Source: Clostridia bacterium (GTDB taxonomy: Bacteria > Bacillota > Clostridia > Lachnospirales > WQUN01). From it: 24,026 bases of DNA. The DNA lies in NCBI GenBank assembly GCA_025997155.1, contig BNUF01000016.1, positions 1-24,026 on the forward strand, written 5' to 3'. Both the position numbers and the translations under genes were made by a program. This document shows positions 9,396 through 23,919 of the stretch, piece after piece. The stretch's first letter is position 1, and each line of letters begins with the position of its first letter. Below the pieces are notes generated by a model. That model was not told the origin of the DNA. It saw only the letters and a list, made by a program, of their open reading frames with translations, and did not search any database.

Positions 9396-10228
9396 AAAAT
9401 ACAAAGATTGACTGGGCTGACGCGACGTGGAATCCCGTCACAGGCTGTAATCACGATTGCCAATATTGCTATGCTCGTGGTATAGCGAAAAGGTTTGCCG
9501 GGTTTGAGTCGAGATCTGGCGGCGAAATCATACCAAATGGCAAAGGAGTTGCGCGTCTTTCGGGGAACAGGGAATTAGTCAAAGTAACCGATAGCATTTA
9601 CGCTACAACCCACGGAGAACCGCTACACGTTTTTGGCAGACAACCGCAGAAGCGGACGAAAAATGGCAGTTGGCAAAAGGCGGTATATCCATATGGCTTC
9701 GAGCCAACGCTTCACCGCTATAATCTTGACGTTGTTAAAGCGGTAGGAAGAAAACCTAAAACTGTGTTCGTTTGCTCAATGGCTGACTTGTTCGGAGAAT
9801 GGGTGCAAATAGACTGGATAAAAGCTGTGTTTGACGCTTGTCAAAACGCGCCGCAACATAGGTATCTATTCTTCACCAAGAACCCGGCACGATTTAATAG
9901 CCTGTATGACGAAATGCCGAAAGGAGAAAATTTCTACTACGGATATTCTAAGGCGCAAGGCGAGATACAAGGCTTCCGCACCGACATAAACAGCTTTGTC
10001 AGCATAGAGCCGCTGTTGGGCGAAGTTAGTATCTCCCCGCTTGCACATCTAAACTGGATTATAGTCGGTGCGGAAACAGGCAACCGAAAAGGTAAGATAA
10101 CGCCCAAGCGTGAGTGGCTTGATGAGATATTGGCGTATTCTGAACAAACAGACACGCCAGTCTTTATGAAAGACAGCTTGCTTACGATAGTAGGCGAAGA
10201 AAATATGAGGAGGGAATTTTCGTGGTAA
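9392..10228 (+). CDS. phage Gp37/Gp68 family protein (DUF5131), radical-SAM-like cysteine motif
   Basis: A 278-residue protein of the DUF5131 family. The N-terminus reads TKIDWADATWNPVTGC, followed by CNHDCQYCYA, i.e. Cys-x3-Cys-x2-Cys as in iron-sulfur radical-SAM enzymes. Later landmarks are FVCSMADLFGEWV, YLFFTKNPAR, FVSIEPLLG and WIIVGAETG, which fit a TIM-barrel. The substrate is unknown; some relatives are annotated as spore-photoproduct-lyase-like, which would suggest a nucleic-acid target, but this is not established. Phage copies are common near replication genes. Its stop overlaps the GTG of the next gene. Confidence 0.88.
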   Translation: MKNTKIDWADATWNPVTGCNHDCQYCYARGIAKRFAGFESRSGGEIIPNGKGVARLSGNRELVKVTDSIYATTHGEPLHVFGRQPQKRTKNGSWQKAVYPYGFEPTLHRYNLDVVKAVGRKPKTVFVCSMADLFGEWVQIDWIKAVFDACQNAPQHRYLFFTKNPARFNSLYDEMPKGENFYYGYSKAQGEIQGFRTDINSFVSIEPLLGEVSISPLAHLNWIIVGAETGNRKGKITPKREWLDEILAYSEQTDTPVFMKDSLLTIVGEENMRREFSW

Positions 10229-10921
10229 ACAGAAGCAATGGGAACGGGCGCAAATACGTGAAAATAAAACCTTTTGTAACGCTTTGTGTTGTTTTGGCAG
10301 TAGTCGTTTCAGTCGTGATAATCGCGGTGACAACCAAAAGAGAGCCAACGGCAATTTATCAGACATACGACGCTACCGAGCCAACACCGACGGAGTCATT
10401 ACCTCCGCTGACGGCAGATAATGAAACGCCGACAGGGTGGACGCTTGACCCTCAACCCACACTGGAACAAAGTAGCGATAACGTGATAGGTGGTTATGAG
10501 AACGCACTTCACTATTGGTATACCGACGATGAGATTGACGCGCTTGCTCAAATGGTGTGGGGAGAAGCGAGAGGTTGTACCGCAGACGAGATTGACGCGC
10601 TTGCTCAAATGGTGTGGGGAGAAGCGAGAGGTTGTACCGCAGACGAGCAAAACCTTGTTGTATGGACGGCTCTAAACAGAGTGAACGACGGTTACTGGGG
10701 CGATACGATAATGGACGTGCTGACCTATCCGAGCGCATTTGCGGGATATGACACGTCGTTCCCTATCATCGACGATATACGAGTTATTTGTTACAAAGCT
10801 CTTCGCAGAGTGGGCGCACTTCGGAGAAGCACCGACACTCGCGCCATACGCGACAACAACGTCATATCTTTATTTCGACGGTGACGGCGACCATAATTAT
10901 TTCCGAGATGAATGGAGATAG
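10222..10921 (+). pseudogene. SleB/CwlJ-like cell-wall hydrolase with duplication and frameshift
   Basis: The product starts at GTG 10222 after AGGAGGG. It has a membrane segment at residues 17-38, a Pro/Thr-rich linker, then a SleB-type hydrolase domain (IDALAQMVWGEARG, whose Glu is the expected catalytic residue; NLVVWTALNRVNDG; LTYPSAFAGY). Two defects are visible. A perfect 57-bp tandem duplication repeats the WGEARG segment (residues 113-118 and 132-137). Near 10801 the frame shifts by +1: the frame from 10222 ends at 10884 with an unrelated tail, while the next frame supplies the usual family end (FAEWAHFGEAP, YLYFDGDGDHNYFRDEW) to a stop at 10921. One extra base, or a +1 shift, around GCTCTTC restores the full domain. 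Its position inside a replication operon is unusual; such enzymes normally act in lysis or spore cortex breakdown. Confidence 0.8.
10531..10644 (+). repeat. perfect 57-bp tandem duplication
   Basis: The unit starting GAGATTGACGCG at 10531 is repeated exactly at 10588, and the next GAG at 10645 begins a third register. It adds 19 residues including a second WGEARG. Perfect identity implies a very recent event or an assembly artefact. Confidence 0.95.
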
Positions 10922-14268: not shown

Positions 14269-14278
14269 GGAGGTAGTT

Positions 14279-14827
14279 ATGGAAATCGTCAAGATAAGGG
14301 TGTCAGACGTTATACCATATGAAAACAATCCGCGCATAAATACGGACGCTGTTATGCCACTTGCTGACAGTATTCGTAGTTTCGGCTTCAACTCTCCAGT
14401 TATTCTTGACAAGGATAAGGTGATTATTTGCGGACACACACGTCTATTGGCGGCTCAAATCCTTGGAATTGAAGAAATTCCTTGTATAATTGCCGCCGAC
14501 CTTACGCCAGAGCAAGTTAAAGCATACCGGATATATGACAACAGAGTAGCAGATTTCTCTAAGTGGGACAAGAAACTGTTGGAGGAAGAAATTGAGTCCA
14601 TTGACAACTATGATGTAAGAACCTATTTTCGCTCTGATTTCAAATTTTACTCTAACATTGAAGATGATGAAAGTGAGAGCGATGACATATTTACCTATGA
14701 CATAACTTTCACATCAAGTGTGAATTTTGAAGAATTTCGTAGGTTCTTAACCCTATTGACTGCGAAATTTCCGGAGTTATCAACCAATACGGAACGCTTT
14801 GAAGCGCAGATTAAGGAGTGGGCGTAA
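14279..14827 (+). CDS. ParB/Srx-like domain protein, copy 1
   Basis: Start at ATG 14279, seven bases after GGAGG. The 182-residue protein has the ParB N-terminal (sulfiredoxin-like) domain at residues 1-95: VIPYENNPR (11-19), a helix ADSIRSFGF, VIICGHTR (48-55, the nucleotide/phosphate motif equivalent to ParB GExR), then LPEQVKAYR-like helix (LTPEQVKAYRIYDNR). The HTH and dimer domain of chromosomal ParB are absent. The C-terminal part (135-182: YDITFTSSVNFEEFRRFLTLL, then KFPEL) is a small domain shared with the next gene. Proteins of this type accompany phage methyltransferases and PAPS-reductase-like enzymes. First gene of the five-gene cassette; AT-richer than the early genes. Confidence 0.85.
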   Translation: MEIVKIRVSDVIPYENNPRINTDAVMPLADSIRSFGFNSPVILDKDKVIICGHTRLLAAQILGIEEIPCIIAADLTPEQVKAYRIYDNRVADFSKWDKKLLEEEIESIDNYDVRTYFRSDFKFYSNIEDDESESDDIFTYDITFTSSVNFEEFRRFLTLLTAKFPELSTNTERFEAQIKEWA

Positions 14828-15378
14828 TGATTAGAGAGATTAAAACATCTGAACTGCGCCCATATGAAAACAACCCGCGCAGGAACGATGAAACAGTAGA
14901 GCAACTCAAAGACAGCATACGGAGGTTTGGCTTTCGTTCTCCATTAGTGATTGACCGTAATAACGTTATCATATGCGGTCACGCTCGATATAAAGCCGCT
15001 CTTAGTATAGGGTTATCAACGCTACCCTGCGTTATTGCTGACGAACTAACCGAAGAACAGACTCGCGCATATCGAATAGCTGATAACGCTGTTGCAGAAA
15101 TAGCTGTTTGGGACAAAATTTTGCTTAATAGGGAAATGGCAGAGTTTGAATCTCTCGAACCGAAATATGAGGACATTGATGATTCAGAAAATATTACCGA
15201 AGACGCAACGGAGCAAGATGTCAAGGAAAGTTCCATAGCCTTTACTTTAACATTCCCGGACGCGGAACGTCTTCGTGAGTTTAAGAAGTTCATAACTGCT
15301 TTGAAAAAAGAGTTTCCGGATTGTCAAAACAACGAGGAACGAGTATTGCGAAAGGTGGCAAGTATTCTCAATGAATAA
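14827..15378 (+). CDS. ParB/Srx-like domain protein, copy 2
   Basis: Start at ATG 14827, sharing its A with the stop TAA of copy 1. The 183-residue protein is a clear paralogue of copy 1: LRPYENNPR (10-18), DSIRRFGFRSP, VIICGHAR (47-54), LTEEQTRAYRIADN. It has the same small C-terminal domain (AFTLTFPDAERLREFKKFITAL, split here at LREFKK, then KEFPD). The pair arose by tandem duplication and has diverged. Having two copies suggests a heterodimer or two specificities; that is inference. It overlaps the start of the PAPS-reductase gene by eight bases. Confidence 0.85.
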   Translation: MIREIKTSELRPYENNPRRNDETVEQLKDSIRRFGFRSPLVIDRNNVIICGHARYKAALSIGLSTLPCVIADELTEEQTRAYRIADNAVAEIAVWDKILLNREMAEFESLEPKYEDIDDSENITEDATEQDVKESSIAFTLTFPDAERLREFKKFITALKKEFPDCQNNEERVLRKVASILNE

Positions 15379-16492
15379 AAAAATACACATCGAAAAAGAC
15401 GTATTCACTGCCGCCAAAGAGCGCGTGAAGAATACACTATTGGAATATGATGACTGTGCTTGCGCTTTTTCCGGCGGTAAAGATTCTCTCGTCACAATAA
15501 ACCTTGTTGACGCTGTTCGCAAAGAAATGGGCTTGCAAGGTAAGACAAAGGTGTTTTTCCGTGACGAAGAACTAATATCCGGAAACGTCATTGAATTTGT
15601 TAAATCAATCGCCGAAAGCGGTAGGTTTGATTTTAGATATTTCGCAATCCCGCTTGAAAGCACAAAAGTCTTGTTAGGTAAACCCACCAGTTACGTTCAA
15701 TGGGACTGTAACCGCCAACATTTGCGACAACCGCCCGACTACGCAATAAAAGCAGAACCGTATAGGGTGTTTAGCCAGTATAACGCTGATGATTTTATCG
15801 CACAGGGAATGAATGGCAGAGTAGCATTTTTTCTCGGAATCCGGGCGCAGGAAAGTCTTAACAGACTTCAAATGCTCTTAAAGAAAAAGAGTAGCAGAAA
15901 CTATGTGTTCCCGCAGACAAAGCGTGTATCGACGGTCTGCCCAATATACGATTGGACAGAAGATGACGTGTTCCTCTACTTCTACAAGGAGAAAGTACCA
16001 TACTGTGAGATTTATGATAATCAAATGCTCAATTTCGAGGGATTGCGCGTTGCTACGCCATTCATAGCGGAAAGTGCGGCACATTTCAACAAGATTCGTA
16101 CACGCGACCCAATATATTATCAGCAGTTGGTTGATTTGTTTCCCGAAATGCTCGTTCAAGAGAGATACTTTGCCGAATACGACAAATCTACGTCGGGAGT
16201 GGACTTTGGCAAATACAGTCGTGACGCGAAAGGCATTTATGCTTTTATTGATGACGTATTAGATGACCAACACCAAAAAGATGTCGCAAAGAAAAAAGCG
16301 TTAGCGGCAATATCGGCACGGGAAACAAGGTTGAAGACCAATCCCGAATCAATCAAAAATCTTGGCGGCTATCCATTGCTGTACATTATGGAAAGTGTGC
16401 TGAACGGTTCATACAAAAGATACATTAAGGCTTGCTTAATGCCGACAGATAAACATTTTGAATATGAGGGGGTGGACAAAAATGCGCTATAA
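15371..16492 (+). CDS. PAPS reductase-family PP-loop protein (DUF3440, IbrA/DndC-like)
   Basis: A 373-residue protein with the PP-loop signature SGGKDS at residues 34-39 in CACAFSGGKDSLVTINL, which binds ATP and adenylates a substrate. Next comes the family segment KVFFRDEELI, then QWDCNRQHLRQPPDYA and FFLGIRAQESLNR (arginine-containing second motif), CPIYDWTEDDVFLYF and the C-terminal helical DUF3440-like half with YIKACLMPTDKHF. IbrA of E. coli and DndC/SspD of phosphorothioate systems belong to this group. IbrA is encoded beside a ParB-like partner IbrB, as here. The chemistry could be sulfur transfer or nucleotide activation for modifying DNA or tRNA; the substrate is unknown. AAAGGTGG precedes the start. 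Confidence 0.88.
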   Translation: MNKKIHIEKDVFTAAKERVKNTLLEYDDCACAFSGGKDSLVTINLVDAVRKEMGLQGKTKVFFRDEELISGNVIEFVKSIAESGRFDFRYFAIPLESTKVLLGKPTSYVQWDCNRQHLRQPPDYAIKAEPYRVFSQYNADDFIAQGMNGRVAFFLGIRAQESLNRLQMLLKKKSSRNYVFPQTKRVSTVCPIYDWTEDDVFLYFYKEKVPYCEIYDNQMLNFEGLRVATPFIAESAAHFNKIRTRDPIYYQQLVDLFPEMLVQERYFAEYDKSTSGVDFGKYSRDAKGIYAFIDDVLDDQHQKDVAKKKALAAISARETRLKTNPESIKNLGGYPLLYIMESVLNGSYKRYIKACLMPTDKHFEYEGVDKNAL

Positions 16493-17021
16493 CTCGCAGG
16501 AATATGTTGATGTGTATAATCGTTGCGGAGAATTTCCGTCAATCCACGACTATATATTCAATGTAGCCAGTACCATATCAAATGCAAGCGCACTCAACGC
16601 CGCCGACTTGGGAGCGAGTACCGGACTGCTCACTATACGCCTACGCAAGGTTTTTAAGAGCGTAACAGGGTATGAAGCTTCTGATGACGCTATACAACGT
16701 TCCGTTTCCGCCGCGAAGTTGAAGAAATTCAAGATAACCCCATTGTCACTAAAAGAGTTTGAAAAGGAACTTTTGCCGTATGATATTATTATCGCACGTC
16801 GAGTGTTCCCGGAATTGTATGACGCAAAGGTTGTATTTGACCTCCCAGAGATATTTTTCCGAACAGGGATTAAGTACATCTTGTTGGAGGGCAGAAAACC
16901 CGTGGCAAGACCCTCAAATCCATTATGGAGCGCGGACTTGGAAGCAAAAGTATTTGAAAACTTCTACCGCGTTATTAAGGTTGAGGGCGAAGTAAGATTA
17001 TTGGAGGTGAGAACGCAATGA
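16482..17021 (+). CDS. class I SAM-dependent methyltransferase-like protein
   Basis: Start at ATG 16482 after GGGGGTGG, overlapping the PAPS-reductase gene by eleven bases; an upstream start at 16458 would overlap more and lacks a site. The 179-residue protein has motif I ADLGASTG (residues 41-48), then VTGYEASDDAIQRS (motif II acidic end), and DIIIARRVFPEL in place of the usual DPPY/NPPY motif IV. Lack of an N/D-PP-Y motif argues against a standard adenine or N4-cytosine methylase. The protein is short for a DNA methylase and has no target-recognition domain, so it may depend on its ParB neighbours. The substrate is unknown. Confidence 0.75.
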   Translation: MRYNSQEYVDVYNRCGEFPSIHDYIFNVASTISNASALNAADLGASTGLLTIRLRKVFKSVTGYEASDDAIQRSVSAAKLKKFKITPLSLKEFEKELLPYDIIIARRVFPELYDAKVVFDLPEIFFRTGIKYILLEGRKPVARPSNPLWSADLEAKVFENFYRVIKVEGEVRLLEVRTQ

Positions 17022-17518
17022 AACACCCGATAGACAATATGCAATGGATAGCGGTTGACGAATTGAAAAGCAACGACTATAATCCGAACGTCGTATTCAA
17101 GAGTGAACTCTCGCTATTGAAATTCTCGCTTCTAACTAACGGTTGGATACAGCCTGTGCTGATAACGCAAGATAAGGTAATCATTGACGGTTTTCATCGA
17201 GCAACGCTTGCTAAAACCGATAAAGATGTGCGTAAACTTACAGATGGCAAAATTCCTTGCGCGGTGTTGGAACTGTCGGAAGAAGAACGCATAATGCTAA
17301 CCATACGCATTAACCGAGCGAAAGGTAGTCACGTTGCTTTCAAAATGAGCGATTGCGTTAAGCAACTCATAAGAGATTATGGACTTTCAGTTGACTCCGT
17401 ATGCAAAGGTATAGGCGCAACAAAGAACGAGATTGAATTGTTGCTTTGCGATGATGTCTTTAAGAAGAAAGGCATTAACGAGAGTACACAGTATTCACAG
17501 GCGTGGATAGTGGGGTGA
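17018..17518 (+). CDS. ParB/Srx-like domain protein, copy 3 (IbrB-like)
   Basis: The ATG overlaps the methyltransferase stop (ATGA). The 166-residue protein has the ParB N-terminal fold: VDELKSNDYNPN (13-24), then VIIDGFHR at 54-61 (the phosphate-binding motif), and LSEEERIMLTIRINRAKGSH. It differs from copies 1 and 2: its motif is DGFHR, and it keeps a helical C-terminal part (CVKQLIRDYGLSVDSVCKGIGATKNEIELLL) resembling the HTH of true ParB proteins. It is therefore closer to IbrB, the natural partner of the PP-loop gene two positions earlier. Last gene of the cassette, followed directly by terminase small subunit. Confidence 0.85.
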   Translation: MKHPIDNMQWIAVDELKSNDYNPNVVFKSELSLLKFSLLTNGWIQPVLITQDKVIIDGFHRATLAKTDKDVRKLTDGKIPCAVLELSEEERIMLTIRINRAKGSHVAFKMSDCVKQLIRDYGLSVDSVCKGIGATKNEIELLLCDDVFKKKGINESTQYSQAWIVG

Positions 17519-18031: not shown

Positions 18032-19426
18032 GTGTCTTCCAAGATTAGCCCACAGCAAGGTCCGCAAACCTTGTTTCTCACGACAGAAGCAGACATTGCG
18101 ATATACGGCGGCGCGGCAGGAGGAGGCAAGTCGTTTGCCCTCCTGCTTACTCCATTGCCTTATGTTGGAATAAAAGGCTTTGGTACAGTAATTTTTCGCC
18201 GCGACTATGGTATGATATTCTCTGAGGGGTCACTATGGGACGAATCAATGCGACTTTACACTGCGTTAGGTAACGTAACCGTTAAAAGAGGTCAAGCGGA
18301 AATGCGATTTACTGACCGCAAAGGTGACACCATAAGTAAAATATCATACCGCCACATAGCCCGCGACGATGAGTTATCGAACTGGCAGGGTTCGCAAATC
18401 TGTCAGATTTGTTTTGACGAGTTGACGCATTTCAGTCAAAAGCAATTTTTCTATATGCTGTCGCGTAATCGCTCGACTTGCGGCGTTCGTCCGTTTGTTC
18501 GCGCAACGTGTAACCCCGACGCTGATAGTTGGGTAGCTAAATTTATTAGTTGGTGGATAAACGACGAAACAGGATATGCCATTCAAGAACGTAGCGGTGT
18601 GTTGCGTTGGTTCATACGGCGCGGAGAAGAAATACACTGGGCAGACAGCAAAACGGACTTAATCGAACAGTTTGGCTTGAAAACAAGAGAAGAACAAGCA
18701 GAACCAAAATCCGTCACGTTCATTGCGTCAACGATATACGACAACAAGATAATGCTTTCAAAGAACCCGGAATATTTAGCCAACTTGAAAGCGTTACCGA
18801 TTGTGGAACGCGAAAGGTTGTTGTCAGGCAACTGGAAAATTAAGCCCGCCGCAGGATTGTTCTTCAAGCGCACACAAATTGGAGATATGCTTCCCATTAT
18901 TCCTGCTGATGTTAAAACTTGGGTACGCTCTTGGGATTTAGCGGCAACGTCAGAGGACGAGGGCGGCGAACCCGCGTACACGGCAGGCGTTCTTATGGGC
19001 AAAAGGTCAAACGGCAGATATATCGTAGCAGATGTCATCAATCGTAGACTATCATCTTCGGACGTTCGCGCTACAATTAAGCATACGGCGGCAACTGATA
19101 ATGCGCGACTTGGCAGAGTAGCAGTAAGACTTCCCAAAGACCCCGGTCAAGCGGGTAAAGACCAAGCAGAAAGTATGCTCAAATTCTTGGCAGGATATAA
19201 CGTCAAAGCAATTGCGGAGAGTGGTAGCAAGGAAGCGAGAGCAGAACCAGTCGCGGCACAATGGCAAAGTGGAAATTTTGATATTGTCGTGGGCGATTGG
19301 AACGAAATGTACTTCACGCAATTGGAGAGTTTTCCGTCAAGCAAATTCAAAGATATGGTAGACGCAACGAGTACAGCGTTTGCCGAACTCGAAAACGTGT
19401 TTGACATCACCAGTTTAATCACATAG
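18032..19426 (+). CDS. terL: terminase large subunit
   Basis: Begins at GTG 18032 after GAGGG. The 464-residue protein has Walker A GGAAGGGKS (26-34), Walker B ICFDE (126-130) and the nuclease domain with SWDLA (300-304) as its first acidic site, a central segment near RYIVADVINRR and a late DMVDA. It cuts concatemeric phage DNA and drives it into the prohead through the portal using ATP. Length is normal for the family, so packaging should be intact. The gene order TerS-TerL-portal is standard. Confidence 0.96.
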   Translation: MSSKISPQQGPQTLFLTTEADIAIYGGAAGGGKSFALLLTPLPYVGIKGFGTVIFRRDYGMIFSEGSLWDESMRLYTALGNVTVKRGQAEMRFTDRKGDTISKISYRHIARDDELSNWQGSQICQICFDELTHFSQKQFFYMLSRNRSTCGVRPFVRATCNPDADSWVAKFISWWINDETGYAIQERSGVLRWFIRRGEEIHWADSKTDLIEQFGLKTREEQAEPKSVTFIASTIYDNKIMLSKNPEYLANLKALPIVERERLLSGNWKIKPAAGLFFKRTQIGDMLPIIPADVKTWVRSWDLAATSEDEGGEPAYTAGVLMGKRSNGRYIVADVINRRLSSSDVRATIKHTAATDNARLGRVAVRLPKDPGQAGKDQAESMLKFLAGYNVKAIAESGSKEARAEPVAAQWQSGNFDIVVGDWNEMYFTQLESFPSSKFKDMVDATSTAFAELENVFDITSLIT

Positions 19427-19442: not shown

Positions 19443-20900
19443 ATGGCGACAGACAAACCAAAGGTTACACCTAAAAAAGGCGCGGTTGAACGCCGCGACG
19501 GCTATGTCAACCTTGTAAACAAGTATGGAACTCCGCAGGACAACTCAACGGCATACACCTTTCAGCGTGACGGTATGATACCGGATATTCTGCTGTCGGA
19601 GCATTACGAGCAGAACGGTATGTTTTCAAAGATAATCGACGCGCCCGCCGAGGAAGCGTTAAAACACGGCTTTGAACTCGACGGAGAACTGCCCGAAGCG
19701 GAGGAACTTCTCGCCGACGCGCTTGACGCTCTCGATTGGGAGCAAAAAGCGGCGACGGCTATCAAGTGGGCGCGGTTATACGGCGGCGCGATTATCGTAA
19801 TGTTCATCAATGACGGCGGCGGGATAGACGAACCGCTGAACCGTAACGCGATACAGGGCATAGACGAAATTCGCGTATATGAGCGGGCAATCGTTCAGGC
19901 GGACTGGGAAGCGGCGTTATACGGCGAACCGCAGTATTATTCGGTGAGCAGTTACAGCGGTTACTTCCGCGTTCACGCAAGCAGATGTCTTGTATTCAAG
20001 AACGGAACGCTCCCGGAGTATACTGTCAATCCACAGTACCGCTTTTGGGGCTTGCCCGAATACCTCCGCATAAAACGGGAATTGCAGGAATGTTCCACCG
20101 CCCACGGTTTAGGCGTGAAGTTACTCGACCGTTCCGTTCAAGCCATTTACTCAATGAAAGGTTTGGCGCAACTGTTGTCTACCGAAGACGGCGAGGACAA
20201 AGTTTTGAAACGCCTTGCGCTGATAGATAAGGCGCGTGGTATACTAAGTAGCATAGCGATTGACTCCGACGGCGAGAATTATGATTTTAAGTCCATACCG
20301 TTCAGCGGGGTTAAGGACATAATCGACACAACGTGCAATATGCTCTCCGCAGTCACGAGTATACCGCAGACAGTCCTGTTCGGTCGTTCTCCGGCGGGAA
20401 TGAACGCAACAGGCGTGGGCGACCTTGAAAACTACTACAACCTTGTCGAGCGTATTCAGAAGATAATGCTGTACGGCAATCTGAAAATGCTGTCCGACAT
20501 TATTTTCCGCGCTGCGCTTGCAACAGGCGACGTAGATGAACGACCGTTGGTTAAGTTGAAGTTCAAGCAGTTGTGGAGTCTGTCCGAAACCGAACAAGCG
20601 ATAGTAGAGCAGACACGGGCGGCTACTTCGCTCACAAAAGCGCAGACCGCACAGATGTATATTGATATGGGTGCGATTGACCCGTCGGAGATACGAAAAG
20701 GACTTGCGAACAATGGTGAGTTCGAGATTGAAAAACTTCTTGATGACTTGCCGGAAGCTGACCTTATGAGCGGGTGGGAAGATGAACCGCTTGAACAGGA
20801 GCAAGTTGAAGAAGCCGAAAGCGAGGAAGAACAGGGCGGCGAAAATAATTACGAAAATATAACGACAAACACTGGACAACAGCGTGAAACTATGGTATAA
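19443..20900 (+). CDS. phage portal protein (DUF1073)
   Basis: A 485-residue DUF1073-type portal, the ring through which DNA enters and leaves the capsid. Landmarks: an N-terminal DGYVNLVNKYGT, KIIDAPAEEALKHGFEL, ARLYGGAIIVMFIND (wing strand), RFWGLPEYLRI, the stem helices around IDTTCNMLSAVTSIPQTVLFG, then SPAGMNATGVGDLENYYN, and an acidic C-terminus (EAESEEEQGGENN). GGAGG precedes the ATG. A promoter for the next gene overlaps its final codons and stop. Some database entries of this family carry an anti-CBASS label because of an Acb1-like domain in relatives; I see no HxT/S phosphodiesterase pair here. Confidence 0.9.
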   Translation: MATDKPKVTPKKGAVERRDGYVNLVNKYGTPQDNSTAYTFQRDGMIPDILLSEHYEQNGMFSKIIDAPAEEALKHGFELDGELPEAEELLADALDALDWEQKAATAIKWARLYGGAIIVMFINDGGGIDEPLNRNAIQGIDEIRVYERAIVQADWEAALYGEPQYYSVSSYSGYFRVHASRCLVFKNGTLPEYTVNPQYRFWGLPEYLRIKRELQECSTAHGLGVKLLDRSVQAIYSMKGLAQLLSTEDGEDKVLKRLALIDKARGILSSIAIDSDGENYDFKSIPFSGVKDIIDTTCNMLSAVTSIPQTVLFGRSPAGMNATGVGDLENYYNLVERIQKIMLYGNLKMLSDIIFRAALATGDVDERPLVKLKFKQLWSLSETEQAIVEQTRAATSLTKAQTAQMYIDMGAIDPSEIRKGLANNGEFEIEKLLDDLPEADLMSGWEDEPLEQEQVEEAESEEEQGGENNYENITTNTGQQRETMV

Positions 20901-20934: not shown

Positions 20935-21243
20935 ATGAATACCATAGTCAAGTCAAACCTTAACGTCCGCATTGACGCGGGAATAAAAGAACGCGCAGGG
21001 GCGTTGCTTACTCGTATGGGTATTGACCATACGACCGCTATTGAGATGTTCTATCGGCAGATAATCAATGAGAACCGTCTGCCGTTTACTCCCGCGCCTG
21101 TCATTTCGCTTGAAGACCAACTTCGGGCGGCGGTACGCGGTAAAAACTATCCGAAGGACGTACTCAAAACAAATGAGAAAGGGCAGATAATCGTGGACAA
21201 GGACAAAGACCCCGACCTTTACGATTTCGCGGTAAATGGTTGA
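20935..21243 (+). CDS. RelB/DinJ-family antitoxin
   Basis: A 102-residue protein: KSNLNVRIDAGIKERAGALLTRMGID (residues 6-31) and TTAIEMFYRQI give the ribbon-helix-helix DNA-binding domain of RelB/DinJ antitoxins, which also represses the operon. The C-terminal half (about 50-102) would wrap the toxin. GAGGTGC is the ribosome site. Its stop overlaps the toxin start (TGATG). The partner here looks like a PemK/MazF toxin and not the usual RelE/YafQ, a less common pairing. Confidence 0.85.
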   Translation: MNTIVKSNLNVRIDAGIKERAGALLTRMGIDHTTAIEMFYRQIINENRLPFTPAPVISLEDQLRAAVRGKNYPKDVLKTNEKGQIIVDKDKDPDLYDFAVNG

Positions 21244-21560
21244 TGAACATTTTCGATATTTACCTTGCCTATATGTCGTTTGACGAAGACAAAGGTGGCA
21301 AAGAACGCCCCGTGCTTGTCGTGGATATTGATGACGGTCTTGCGGTTGTCTACAACGTCACATCGCAGTACGGCGGCAAAAGCGAATATATACGTTCTAA
21401 GTATTATCCGCTCAAAGACTGGAAACAGGCAGGATTGCTGAAACAGTCTTATGTAGATACGGTTAAGGCGCGGTACATTGAACAGAGTGTTTGCACAAAG
21501 TCAATAGGAACGCTCACCGAAACTGATAAAACAGGACTGATAGCATTTCTTAACAGATAA
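21243..21560 (+). CDS. PemK/MazF-like type II toxin
   Basis: Start at ATG 21243 overlapping the antitoxin stop. The 105-residue product has NIFDIYLAYMSFDED, then KERPVLVVDIDDG (the loop that in MazF/PemK carries the active Arg), VYNVTSQY and the C-terminal DTVKARYIEQSVCTKSIGTL. This fits the small beta-barrel of PemK/MazF toxins, mRNA interferases that cut RNA to stall growth. MazF-like fold is inferred from the RPVLVV motif and length. Coupled to the antitoxin, as usual for these modules. Confidence 0.75.
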   Translation: MNIFDIYLAYMSFDEDKGGKERPVLVVDIDDGLAVVYNVTSQYGGKSEYIRSKYYPLKDWKQAGLLKQSYVDTVKARYIEQSVCTKSIGTLTETDKTGLIAFLNR

Positions 21561-21979: not shown

Positions 21980-23389
21980 ATGGACGCTCAATCAATGCAA
22001 CAGGCGACGCAGGAAGCGGTAAAGAAGAAATTCGGACGGAAGCGGTTACTGACGAGTAAGGTCGTGACTCATTACCCGGAAAACCTTGAACGTGAGTACG
22101 CCCGGCTGACAAACTCGTATATGTCGTTGTTCTCGAACACGCTCAAAACCTATCTGCCGAAAATCCGCGCAACGCTTGAAGACTATGAGCGAAGCGGTTT
22201 TATTATGGACATGGCAGACAATGATTCACAAATTAGTAATAAAGAATTGATTGCTAAAGCAAATGCGATTGCGGACGAAGACGGACGTATAAAAGGAGTA
22301 ATTCCTTTTGTGGGCAAGGAAACACAAGACAAGGTAAGGGCTGTCCCCTTTGATGCACTGAAAGCAGAGAAACGTATGATACCTCTGTCCGAATTAGCAA
22401 CTGCACAACGTGGTGTGGACGAAGACCACGTTGTAGATTTGATAAACGCGGGAGTATTAGATATTACAAGTCCAATAGAAGTTAATATAGTCAATGGACA
22501 ATATGTTATTAAGGACGGAAATCATCGTGCAATATTAGCTAAGTTGCGTGGTCAAAAAGAAATATATGCACAAGTTGCAAATTTAGACACCCCGCCTGTA
22601 ACTCACAGCGTGGCGGTAATTGCGGCGACTAACATAAAACTTGAAAGGTTGTTCGCGGAAGTGCTTGCTGACTTTGAGAAACGGCAAAACAATTTCAACG
22701 TGGCAAGCAGGATTGAAAAGTTATCGAACCTCACGCGCAAACTGACGGTCAAAGAGTGGAAGCGCGTCGTTAAGAATACGCTCGGCATTGATATTATGGA
22801 GGACTACTACAACGGCGCGAAGTTTCAGCGGCTGTTTGATTCGTGGATTGCGGATAACGTCGCCAAAATCAAGGCAATACCAAATGAAACCATTGTTAGT
22901 ATGCGTAACATCGTGAAGCAGGGCTACTTAAACGGTATTCCGGCAGTCAAGCGGGATTTTGCCGTTCAGCGCAAACTTAAAGACGGCACGGTGACAACGG
23001 TCACGCTCCACAGCAAACAGCCAACCATTGCCGAGCAGATACAAGAAGCCTACCAAATATCAAAGGAACACGCCCAGTTAATAGCCCGCGGCCAAATGGC
23101 AAAGCTGAACGCTCAAATCTCACAGGAGCAGATGAATGACGCGGGCGTGACCGAATATGTTTGGCGGGCGGTTAATGACGGCAGAACACGGGCTTGTCAT
23201 AAATCGCTGAACGGCAAGCGATTTATGTTTGCTGTTGGCGCGGAGCAATGGTACGACACCAAAAGCAAAGGCAGAGTTTCCACAGGCTACGCAAACCCCG
23301 GCGAGTATTATCAATGCCGCTGTGTCGCGCTTCCTGTGTTCGACCTTGATACGGTAGTATTGCCGTGGGAGAAAGGAGAAGCGAAATGA
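21980..23389 (+). CDS. Mu F-like minor head protein with an inserted ParB-like domain
   Basis: A 469-residue protein. Residues 1-75 and 208-469 are a normal Mu F/SPP1 gp7-type head morphogenesis protein: helical N-terminus (YPENLEREYARLTNSY), a middle helical body (KLTVKEWKRVVKNTLGIDI), AQLIARGQMAKLNAQIS, and the C-terminal signature VWRAVNDGRTRACHKSLNGK with PGEYYQCRC (440-448). Residues about 76-207 are foreign: a ParB/Srx-like domain with MIPLSELATAQRGVDEDHV, SPIEVNIVNGQYVIKDGNHRA (split at VIKDGNHR, 176-183) and AQVANLD. The reading frame is kept through both joints. The insert is far richer in A+T than its flanks. The Mu F part should sit at the portal or inside the capsid, so the insert may be carried in the particle. 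GGAGGA precedes the start. Confidence 0.88.
   Translation: MDAQSMQQATQEAVKKKFGRKRLLTSKVVTHYPENLEREYARLTNSYMSLFSNTLKTYLPKIRATLEDYERSGFIMDMADNDSQISNKELIAKANAIADEDGRIKGVIPFVGKETQDKVRAVPFDALKAEKRMIPLSELATAQRGVDEDHVVDLINAGVLDITSPIEVNIVNGQYVIKDGNHRAILAKLRGQKEIYAQVANLDTPPVTHSVAVIAATNIKLERLFAEVLADFEKRQNNFNVASRIEKLSNLTRKLTVKEWKRVVKNTLGIDIMEDYYNGAKFQRLFDSWIADNVAKIKAIPNETIVSMRNIVKQGYLNGIPAVKRDFAVQRKLKDGTVTTVTLHSKQPTIAEQIQEAYQISKEHAQLIARGQMAKLNAQISQEQMNDAGVTEYVWRAVNDGRTRACHKSLNGKRFMFAVGAEQWYDTKSKGRVSTGYANPGEYYQCRCVALPVFDLDTVVLPWEKGEAK
22205..22600 (+). other. AT-rich segment encoding the inserted ParB-like domain
   Basis: Hand counts of G+C per 60 bases are 18 at 22201, 20 at 22441 and 21 at 22501, against 29 at 22081 and 34 at 23161. 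Codon use shifts to A/T-ending codons in the same interval. The borders are approximate (within about 30 bp). This supports recent transfer of the domain-coding DNA into the head gene. Confidence 0.75.
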
Positions 23390-23616
23390 TACCCAAGTAT
23401 GAAAACGAAATCCTGTTGGCGTGTACGTCGGGCATAAAAGAACTGGAAGCCATTGCCGACTACACGCAGAAGCTGATAGAAAGCGAGAGCGACGAAATGA
23501 AAGCAATCTACACGGACAACCGCCGCGACGAGTTGCCGCATATTCAGAACATCGTCATTGCAATAACGGCAATGGTAAGCGGCGAAAGTCCGAAAATCGC
23601 GGAGGAGGTGGGTTGA
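23386..23616 (+). CDS. small phage structural-region protein, 76 aa
   Basis: A 76-residue helical protein (IPKYENEILLACTSGIKELEAIADYTQKLI, split at GIKELEAIADY, and DELPHIQNIVIAITAMVSG). It starts at 23386 after GAAAGGAGA, overlapping the Mu F-like gene by four bases. No known family is recognised. Its position between head protein and DUF2213 gene suggests a head-assembly accessory role, by context only. Confidence 0.7.
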   Translation: MIPKYENEILLACTSGIKELEAIADYTQKLIESESDEMKAIYTDNRRDELPHIQNIVIAITAMVSGESPKIAEEVG

Positions 23617-23619
23617 TAA

Positions 23620-23919
23620 ATGGCAAAAGCACCGAAGCTGACGAGAGTTACAAGGCTTGACGCTATCCCGCTTGAAAAAGCGCACTATACTGATGAGGGT
23701 TATCTTGTTGATAACCCCGTTGTTACGTCTTGCGGAATTTTCGAGTACCATAATCCCGACGGAAGCGTCCGCAAGGAACTCCGCTTGCAGGAACACGTCT
23801 TTGACGAGAAAAGTCTTGCGACATACAAAGGCAAGCCCGTAATCATAACCCACGACGCGGGGCGCGTTACAAAAGATAACGTCGCGGAGAACAGCATAGG
23901 TATAGTCGAGGCTATTTAA
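23620..23919 (+). pseudogene. DUF2213 protein, interrupted after about 94 residues
   Basis: The 99-codon frame (ribosome site GGAGGAGGTGG) matches the N-terminus of DUF2213 phage proteins, which are several hundred residues long and lie in head modules (possible prohead protease/scaffold): TRLDAIPLEKAHYTDEGYLVD, VTSCGIFEYHNPDG, LRLQEHVFDEKSLATYKGKPVI (split at FDEKSLATYKG), ITHDAGRVTKDNVAENSIG. Right after the conserved ENSIG the frame runs into foreign bases (IVEAI) and stops at 23919, where an IS630-type element begins. The rest of the gene would lie beyond the element, outside the window. Confidence 0.85.

Follow-up and report, generated by a model that had tools for sequence, protein, structure and literature searches.

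The closest described relatives of the head protein considered here are the MuF-type minor head (ejection) proteins gp7 of SPP1 and gp44 of 80-alpha. In SPP1, the portal is known to interact with gp7 and brings a few copies of it into the procapsid, and gp7 supports the start of infection (PMC6316719); in 80-alpha, the ejection protein gp44 binds DNA ends, and its function needs nearly the whole protein (PMC7290940). Extra domains and fusions already known on MuF proteins include a VIP2 toxin, a portal and a protease (PMC7302621), and in the MuF polymorphic toxins the head protein serves as a vehicle for a C-terminal toxin domain (PMC5576092). The second group to which this locus relates is the ParB/sulfiredoxin (ParB/Srx) fold, with its GxxR phosphate-binding (P, or Box II) motif. 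In fusions, domains of this fold can bind CTP, ATP or GTP, with NTP binding detectable in only 11 of 28 purified proteins of the ParB fold, and one phage fusion joins the fold to DUF1983, which is frequent on receptor-binding proteins (PMC12704722). ParB/Srx domains of the DdrB type occur in polyvalent phage proteins that may enter the head, and DdrB of phage P1 does so in processed form (PMC5512222).

Here we describe, in the window (the whole 24,026-nt stretch of DNA that we analysed), a MuF gene carrying a foreign insert that, judging from its model, is probably a nucleotide-binding domain of the ParB/sulfiredoxin type. A head protein with an extra domain is already known; an internal ParB/Srx insert in MuF is a new variation, of which there is one example. 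The whole chain outside the insert is of the SPP1 gp7/80-alpha gp44 kind, and its gene likewise lies downstream of a portal gene; what sets it apart is a domain at a site where none of the 119 other best-listed relatives has one. As in the MuF polymorphic toxins of PMC5576092, a head protein appears as the vehicle for an extra domain, but the domain is internal rather than C-terminal and no insert-specific immunity gene was seen. The insert shares its fold and GxxR motif with the ParB-CTPase-fold fusion proteins (PMC12704722), SbnI, SerK and sulfiredoxin, and with the fusions also the attachment to an unrelated partner; here, however, that partner is MuF, and the insert is missed by PF02195. 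The words MuF, portal, capsid and virion have 0 occurrences in the main text of PMC12704722. With the DdrB-like domains the insert has in common a ParB/Srx domain in a phage protein that may be packaged in the head, whereas its carrier is a short canonical MuF. Literature searches, covering main texts, brought up no description of an internal ParB insertion in MuF. Because DdrB-ParB and MuF are both network hubs in PMC5512222, a polypeptide combining ParB and MuF may exist in the supplement of that paper.

The MuF gene and the borders of its insert

The MuF product has 469 aa. Its Phage_Mu_F domain (PF04233) scores 53.7 bits against a curated Pfam cut-off of 29.6 and its gene lies close downstream of the portal gene, separated from it by three small genes (Table 1); both features place the protein in the MuF family. 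TIGR01641 scores 61.7 against a cut-off of 39.65, and the PHROGs family phrog_324 (head morphogenesis) covers residues 198-464 with an E value of 1.5e-44. The N-terminal MuF block has a long helix (34-74) at its end, followed by a variable acidic linker (AF2, alignment A1), and the AF2 block means are 79-96 from residue 211 on, except at 311-350 and in the last residues. A sequence search brought up no solved MuF relative, the weak MHC rows and one enzyme row being taken as chance, and the full-length model found nothing meaningful in the PDB (best E 0.4). At approximately residues 321-347 (22940-23020) lie some 25 residues, modelled as two strands; in the 30-sequence alignment, the only other protein to have them is the nearest relative, P0002. 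One homologue of 817 aa, P0015, carries the MuF and DUF2213 Pfam domains on one chain.

Table 1. Features of the MuF locus, in window coordinates
Feature	Position	Strand	Basis
Terminase large subunit gene, upstream of MuF	18032-19426		
Portal protein gene (PF06381), expected packaging partner of MuF	19443-20900	+	Pfam
MuF / SPP1 gp7-type minor head protein gene, with insert	21980-23389	+	PF04233, TIGR01641, phrog_324, homologues
Native N-terminal MuF block, residues 1-84	21980-22231	+	alignment A1, AF2 model
Inserted domain of predicted ParB/sulfiredoxin fold, residues ~85-203, +/- a few residues	22232-22588	+	alignment borders, GC3 change point, fold
DGNHR, residues 179-183, with the GxxR phosphate-binding (P / Box II) motif	22514-22528	+	sequence; motif per PMC12704722; conserved in A4
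Native C-terminal MuF block, residues 204-469	22589-23386	+	alignment A1, AF2 model
Pfam Phage_Mu_F match, residues 348-450	23021-23329	+	PF04233

The insert, of 357 nt and in frame at both ends, is located in the variable linker between two long MuF helices. Searching for MuF homologues gave 308 proteins at E <= 0.001, of which the best 120 were used for comparison. In the 59 other proteins of the first 60, homology falls into two blocks, approximately 1-85 and 205-466, that adjoin in the homologue; in a few homologues a block starts already at about query residue 154-184. An alignment of 30 sequences shows the nearest relative (65% identical) joining the equivalents of residues ~84 and ~204 directly, and the insert site as a short, often acidic linker that varies in length and sequence. 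Among the best 120 of 308 homologues, the window's protein is the only one whose excess at the site is above 30 residues; the excess in the relatives runs from about -20 to +25 residues, the largest extras being 25 and 12. At the DNA level, both MuF blocks are visible in 109 of 147 loci, and the extra stretch is present in 3 of these 109, all of them the window's own DNA; the 106 other two-block loci include at least two viral contigs counted twice. Named genomes account for 53 loci: in the 25 closest (L089-L113) the best is a Synergistaceae MAG and the others are mostly Clostridia/Bacillota-type genomes, and the 28 more distant ones are mostly Proteobacteria. We looked for a target-site duplication at the insert borders and found none, the longest exact repeat common to both border zones being 7 nt.

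The composition of the insert is best seen in its third codon positions. Its G+C content is 38.9% and its GC3 0.26, a GC3 lower than in any of 505 119-codon windows drawn from the other listed genes (lowest 0.345, in a ParB-like gene). Plain G+C alone is unremarkable, because 396-nt windows as low in G+C as the first-pass segment described below make up 5% of the window. A homology-free change-point scan of GC3 placed the best segment of the MuF gene at codons 81-202, with a log-likelihood ratio of 23.4 that was reached in 0 of 1000 permutations (on a coarser grid); the same scan gave 4.3 and 4.4 in the neighbouring terminase and portal genes. G+C by codon position is 0.59/0.32/0.26, so that the insert codes in the MuF frame, and a Markov imitation of it stayed open in 1 of 5000 trials. 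The simplest reading of these sequence features is that the insert would have entered recently and in frame, from a genome richer in A+T.

The first-pass annotation had described an internal, in-frame, compositionally foreign ParB/Srx domain at residues 76-207 (22205-22600). That description stands, with two corrections. Alignment with homologues shows the borders to be too wide, taking in about 9 + 4 native linker residues, and the quoted 30-35% G+C is too low: the segment has 39.9% G+C and a GC3 of 0.28, although its contrast with the flanks (49.3% and 49.8% G+C; GC3 0.61 and 0.59) is real. Neither of the two outcomes named at first pass as refuting it was observed: the region is absent from the 119 other best-listed homologues and the 106 other two-block loci, and it does model as ParB/Srx. 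The roles suggested there, as an effector, a nuclease or a module at the portal, are treated below as candidates.

Fold, motif and related domains

The insert models as a ParB/sulfiredoxin fold, as in ParB, SbnI, SerK and sulfiredoxin, with moderate confidence and from an alignment whose rows were mostly gathered by the DGNHR motif, which agrees with the fold proposed for this region at first pass; in a full-length AF2 model made without the motif-gathered rows, the insert block has a pLDDT of 30-60. The GxxR phosphate motif is intact (GNHR, residues 180-183). In the insert model, confidence in which is not high throughout, helix 97-105 is followed by strand 110-117 with nothing between; the extra helix with a conserved tyrosine that DdrB-like domains have between last helix and strand (PMC5512222) does not appear in this model. 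The insert ends at the fold and is followed by MuF sequence, with no HTH and no dimerisation domain after the fold; a canonical partition ParB is therefore unlikely.

Family libraries gave little direct signal. Pfam ParB_N (PF02195) did not match the insert at E <= 10; the best Pfam row was PF23719 (VapB-like), at 20.1 bits below its cut-off of 27, with two weaker rows besides, and a search with PF23719 found 0 in 96 genomes and 0 in 14 controls, which says nothing on the presence of that family. In PHROGs, the insert matched a ParB-like family at E 0.09. Across 398 genomes of the phylum, five matches besides the insert itself were obtained at E <= 0.01, all to proteins with a ParB/Srx-type GNHR or GHHR. 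The best of them has an E value of 5e-4 per genome, for which about 0.2 would be expected by chance over 398 genomes; since one such match is not significant, the evidence lies in the agreement of all five.

Profiles gave a stronger signal. Three DNA motif scans yielded 45 stretches, of which 17 entered alignment A4 and 14 alignment A5; 28 were left out as near-copies, fragments or short chance frames (such as L150, L163, L184 and L187) or for brevity, and L169, L178 and L181 differ by 1-3 residues. A5 contains motif-collected viral domains and the window's three ParB domains, aligned without the insert, and its profile scores the insert at 40.2 bits, above all 2000 motif-keeping shuffles (maximum 35.5). 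With the motif masked, the score is 8.7 bits, reached in 1 of 2000; a profile of this type without portal-type rows gives 35.5 against a maximum of 24.5 in 1000. Profile comparison returned a probability of 96.4 for the insert and 0.5 for an insert-free homologue. The window's own three ParB proteins were also made into a profile, which does not single out the insert: the score of 8.8 bits was reached by 5 of 2000 shuffles with the motif retained, and masking the motif left no signal (1540 of 2000 shuffles reach it).

A second example of this architecture was sought in several collections. Searching 5.8 billion proteins with the region returned the window's protein alone, and with the insert alone none, both searches reaching relatives that share 5-residue words. 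The insert had 0 matches in viral contigs, 19 weak matches in phage records (E 0.08-9, several annotated as ParB-like), one in plasmids (E 9) and four besides its own in 96 relative genomes (E 0.039-0.094). Relatives of the insert found by tblastn account for 2 of 262 viral stretches with the motif, on the contigs of L164 and L157; both are multi-domain phage proteins, L164 with a deaminase domain. PF04233 occurs at 77 places in 63 of the 398 phylum genomes; with the window's own copy and three copies from a single genome set aside, 73 MuF frames were compared from stop to stop (3 of the 73 reach the region edge). A comparable domain is present in 0 of 73: their best profile score is 4.8 bits, whereas the window's MuF, the control, scores 38.5. 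The 73 frames contain no DGxHR-type motif.

The same kind of DGNHR domain is found on another head-gate protein. L183, L185 and L189, which are identical, and L191 are Portal_Mu proteins with the domain in their C-terminal part; the L183 domain is still found, at 32.6 bits, by a profile made without portal rows. Unlike in the window, the carrier is a portal and the domain lies near the C-terminus, not between MuF helices; these portals belong to PF06074, the window's own to PF06381. At L169, the portal has no match, and a frame of 65 aa on the far side of the protease gene carries the domain. The Mu-type portals L183:2158-4533 and L191:1065-3140 also contain short repeats such as GHAFRGNQ and GHKFRGNQ.

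Candidate roles of the insert

The insertion, foreign composition, fold and intact GxxR motif are supported by computation. We propose, as an account with about an even chance of being right, that the insert is a recently acquired, probably NTP-binding cargo domain that is packaged via MuF, delivered with the DNA and used for a task early in infection. The phage would have taken up a self-contained domain of ParB/sulfiredoxin fold by recent in-frame insertion from an A+T-richer source, at the flexible linker that joins the two long MuF helices. We infer that MuF with the insert would still bind the portal and be packaged in a few copies, and that the domain would ride as cargo on the helical hairpin and be ejected with the DNA. 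Once in the new host cell, the domain would be expected to bind a nucleoside triphosphate through DGNHR; its task would most likely lie at or close to the DNA end that MuF proteins are able to hold, in an NTP-controlled binding, protection or phosphotransfer step, or else in anti-defence. By analogy with SPP1 gp7, gp44, the ParB-fold fusions, P1 DdrB and the known MuF fusions, a packaged NTP-binding lobe acting early appears to be the best-supported reading, and MuF with the insert is probably the carrier of a new predicted activity at the start of infection. Since a single sequence of such architecture was found, no conservation backs a function of the insert, and because gp44 requires nearly its whole length (PMC7290940), the insert might also disturb MuF function.

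It is unlikely, in our estimate, that the insert is instead a toxin, such as an antibacterial nuclease, and the whole protein a MuF polymorphic toxin of unusual layout that delivers a Tox-ParB-like effector. C-terminal toxin domains are known on MuF proteins (PMC5576092), toxins with the ParB fold are on record for delivery systems of other kinds (PMC3482391) and some ParB-fold proteins are reported as DNases (PMC5512222). The domain here is internal, however, and the MuF protein has no C-terminal extension, ending only 19 residues past its own Pfam match, against the threshold of at least 100 aa used in PMC5576092, the main text of which has 0 occurrences of 'ParB'. Relatives of the small ORF at 23365-23616 occur at 9 of 105 loci behind MuF genes that lack the insert, 94-3240 nt downstream, and the ORF is thus not specific to the insert; an immunity gene may still lie elsewhere. 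A table passage of PMC3482391 lists Tox-ParB with T2SS, T5SS, T6SS, T7SS and PVC, not with MuF. A toxin is therefore a possible, less supported reading that comes without the usual marks of C-terminal position and dedicated immunity gene.

A structural or packaging role, in which the lobe would serve packaging or ejection from a place at the portal inside the particle, being an NTP-gated or DNA-handling element there rather than acting in the host cytoplasm, draws on the similar domain of the Portal_Mu proteins in other phages and on the MuF-portal interaction of SPP1 (PMC6316719). We judge it improbable: the domain is missing from the 119 other best-listed relatives, which argues against a part of the shared machine, and the interior of the particle is generally expected to offer no useful NTP.

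There is likewise only a small chance that the insert is an inert passenger, a tolerated, functionless recent arrival. Its singleton status in the collections searched and the length variation of the linker would fit this, whereas the intact fold and GxxR motif, the two in-frame ends and the rarity of open reading frames among the imitations speak against it. That an assembly chimera or sequencing artefact fused a ParB-coding piece into the MuF gene is very improbable: the source assembly has 502 contigs and is 77% complete, and this is a single observation, but each junction keeps the frame and falls within the variable linker, the inserted piece corresponds to about one whole fold, and the border zones share so short a repeat.

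The locus looks like a sharply bordered, recent case of domain capture within a virion protein, and points to the linker that joins the two long helices of MuF as a place where a folded lobe can be accommodated. It opens two questions to experiment, one on internal cargo delivery by MuF and one on whether nucleotide-binding ParB-fold domains act as phage infection begins. Going by the portal fusions, ParB/Srx-type domains would seem to be gained by head-gate proteins more than once. A broader idea, which we hold to be a long shot, is that NTP-binding domains of this fold are a recurrent head-gate add-on, in MuF here and on Mu-type portals elsewhere, and might work as nucleotide-controlled clamps or switches on the genome end, becoming active on meeting cytoplasmic NTP.

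Neighbouring genes

Between the portal and MuF genes, 20935-21560 holds a gene pair, first a RelB-like antitoxin and then a PemK/MazF-like toxin, neither of which was found in 105 relative loci, many of them short; by sequence, the pair looks like a toxin-antitoxin moron. The DUF2213-like protease frame at 23620-23919 reaches its stop at 23919, the profiles covering 3-85 of 167 positions in Pfam and 17-109 of 390 in PHROGs, and looks truncated or frame-disrupted. Upstream of the terminase gene, a cassette at 14276-17518 groups a PAPS-reductase/DndC-like gene (15371-16492) and a methyltransferase-like gene (16458-17021) with three distinct ParB-like genes placed around them. Recent duplication of the phage's own ParB genes was considered as a source of the insert and found no support, the best local match having 52.6% identity over 19 residues (E 0.003). 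The frame at 10222-10884 carries a tandem duplication of about 20 residues, in which EIDALAQMVWGEARGCTAD occurs twice.
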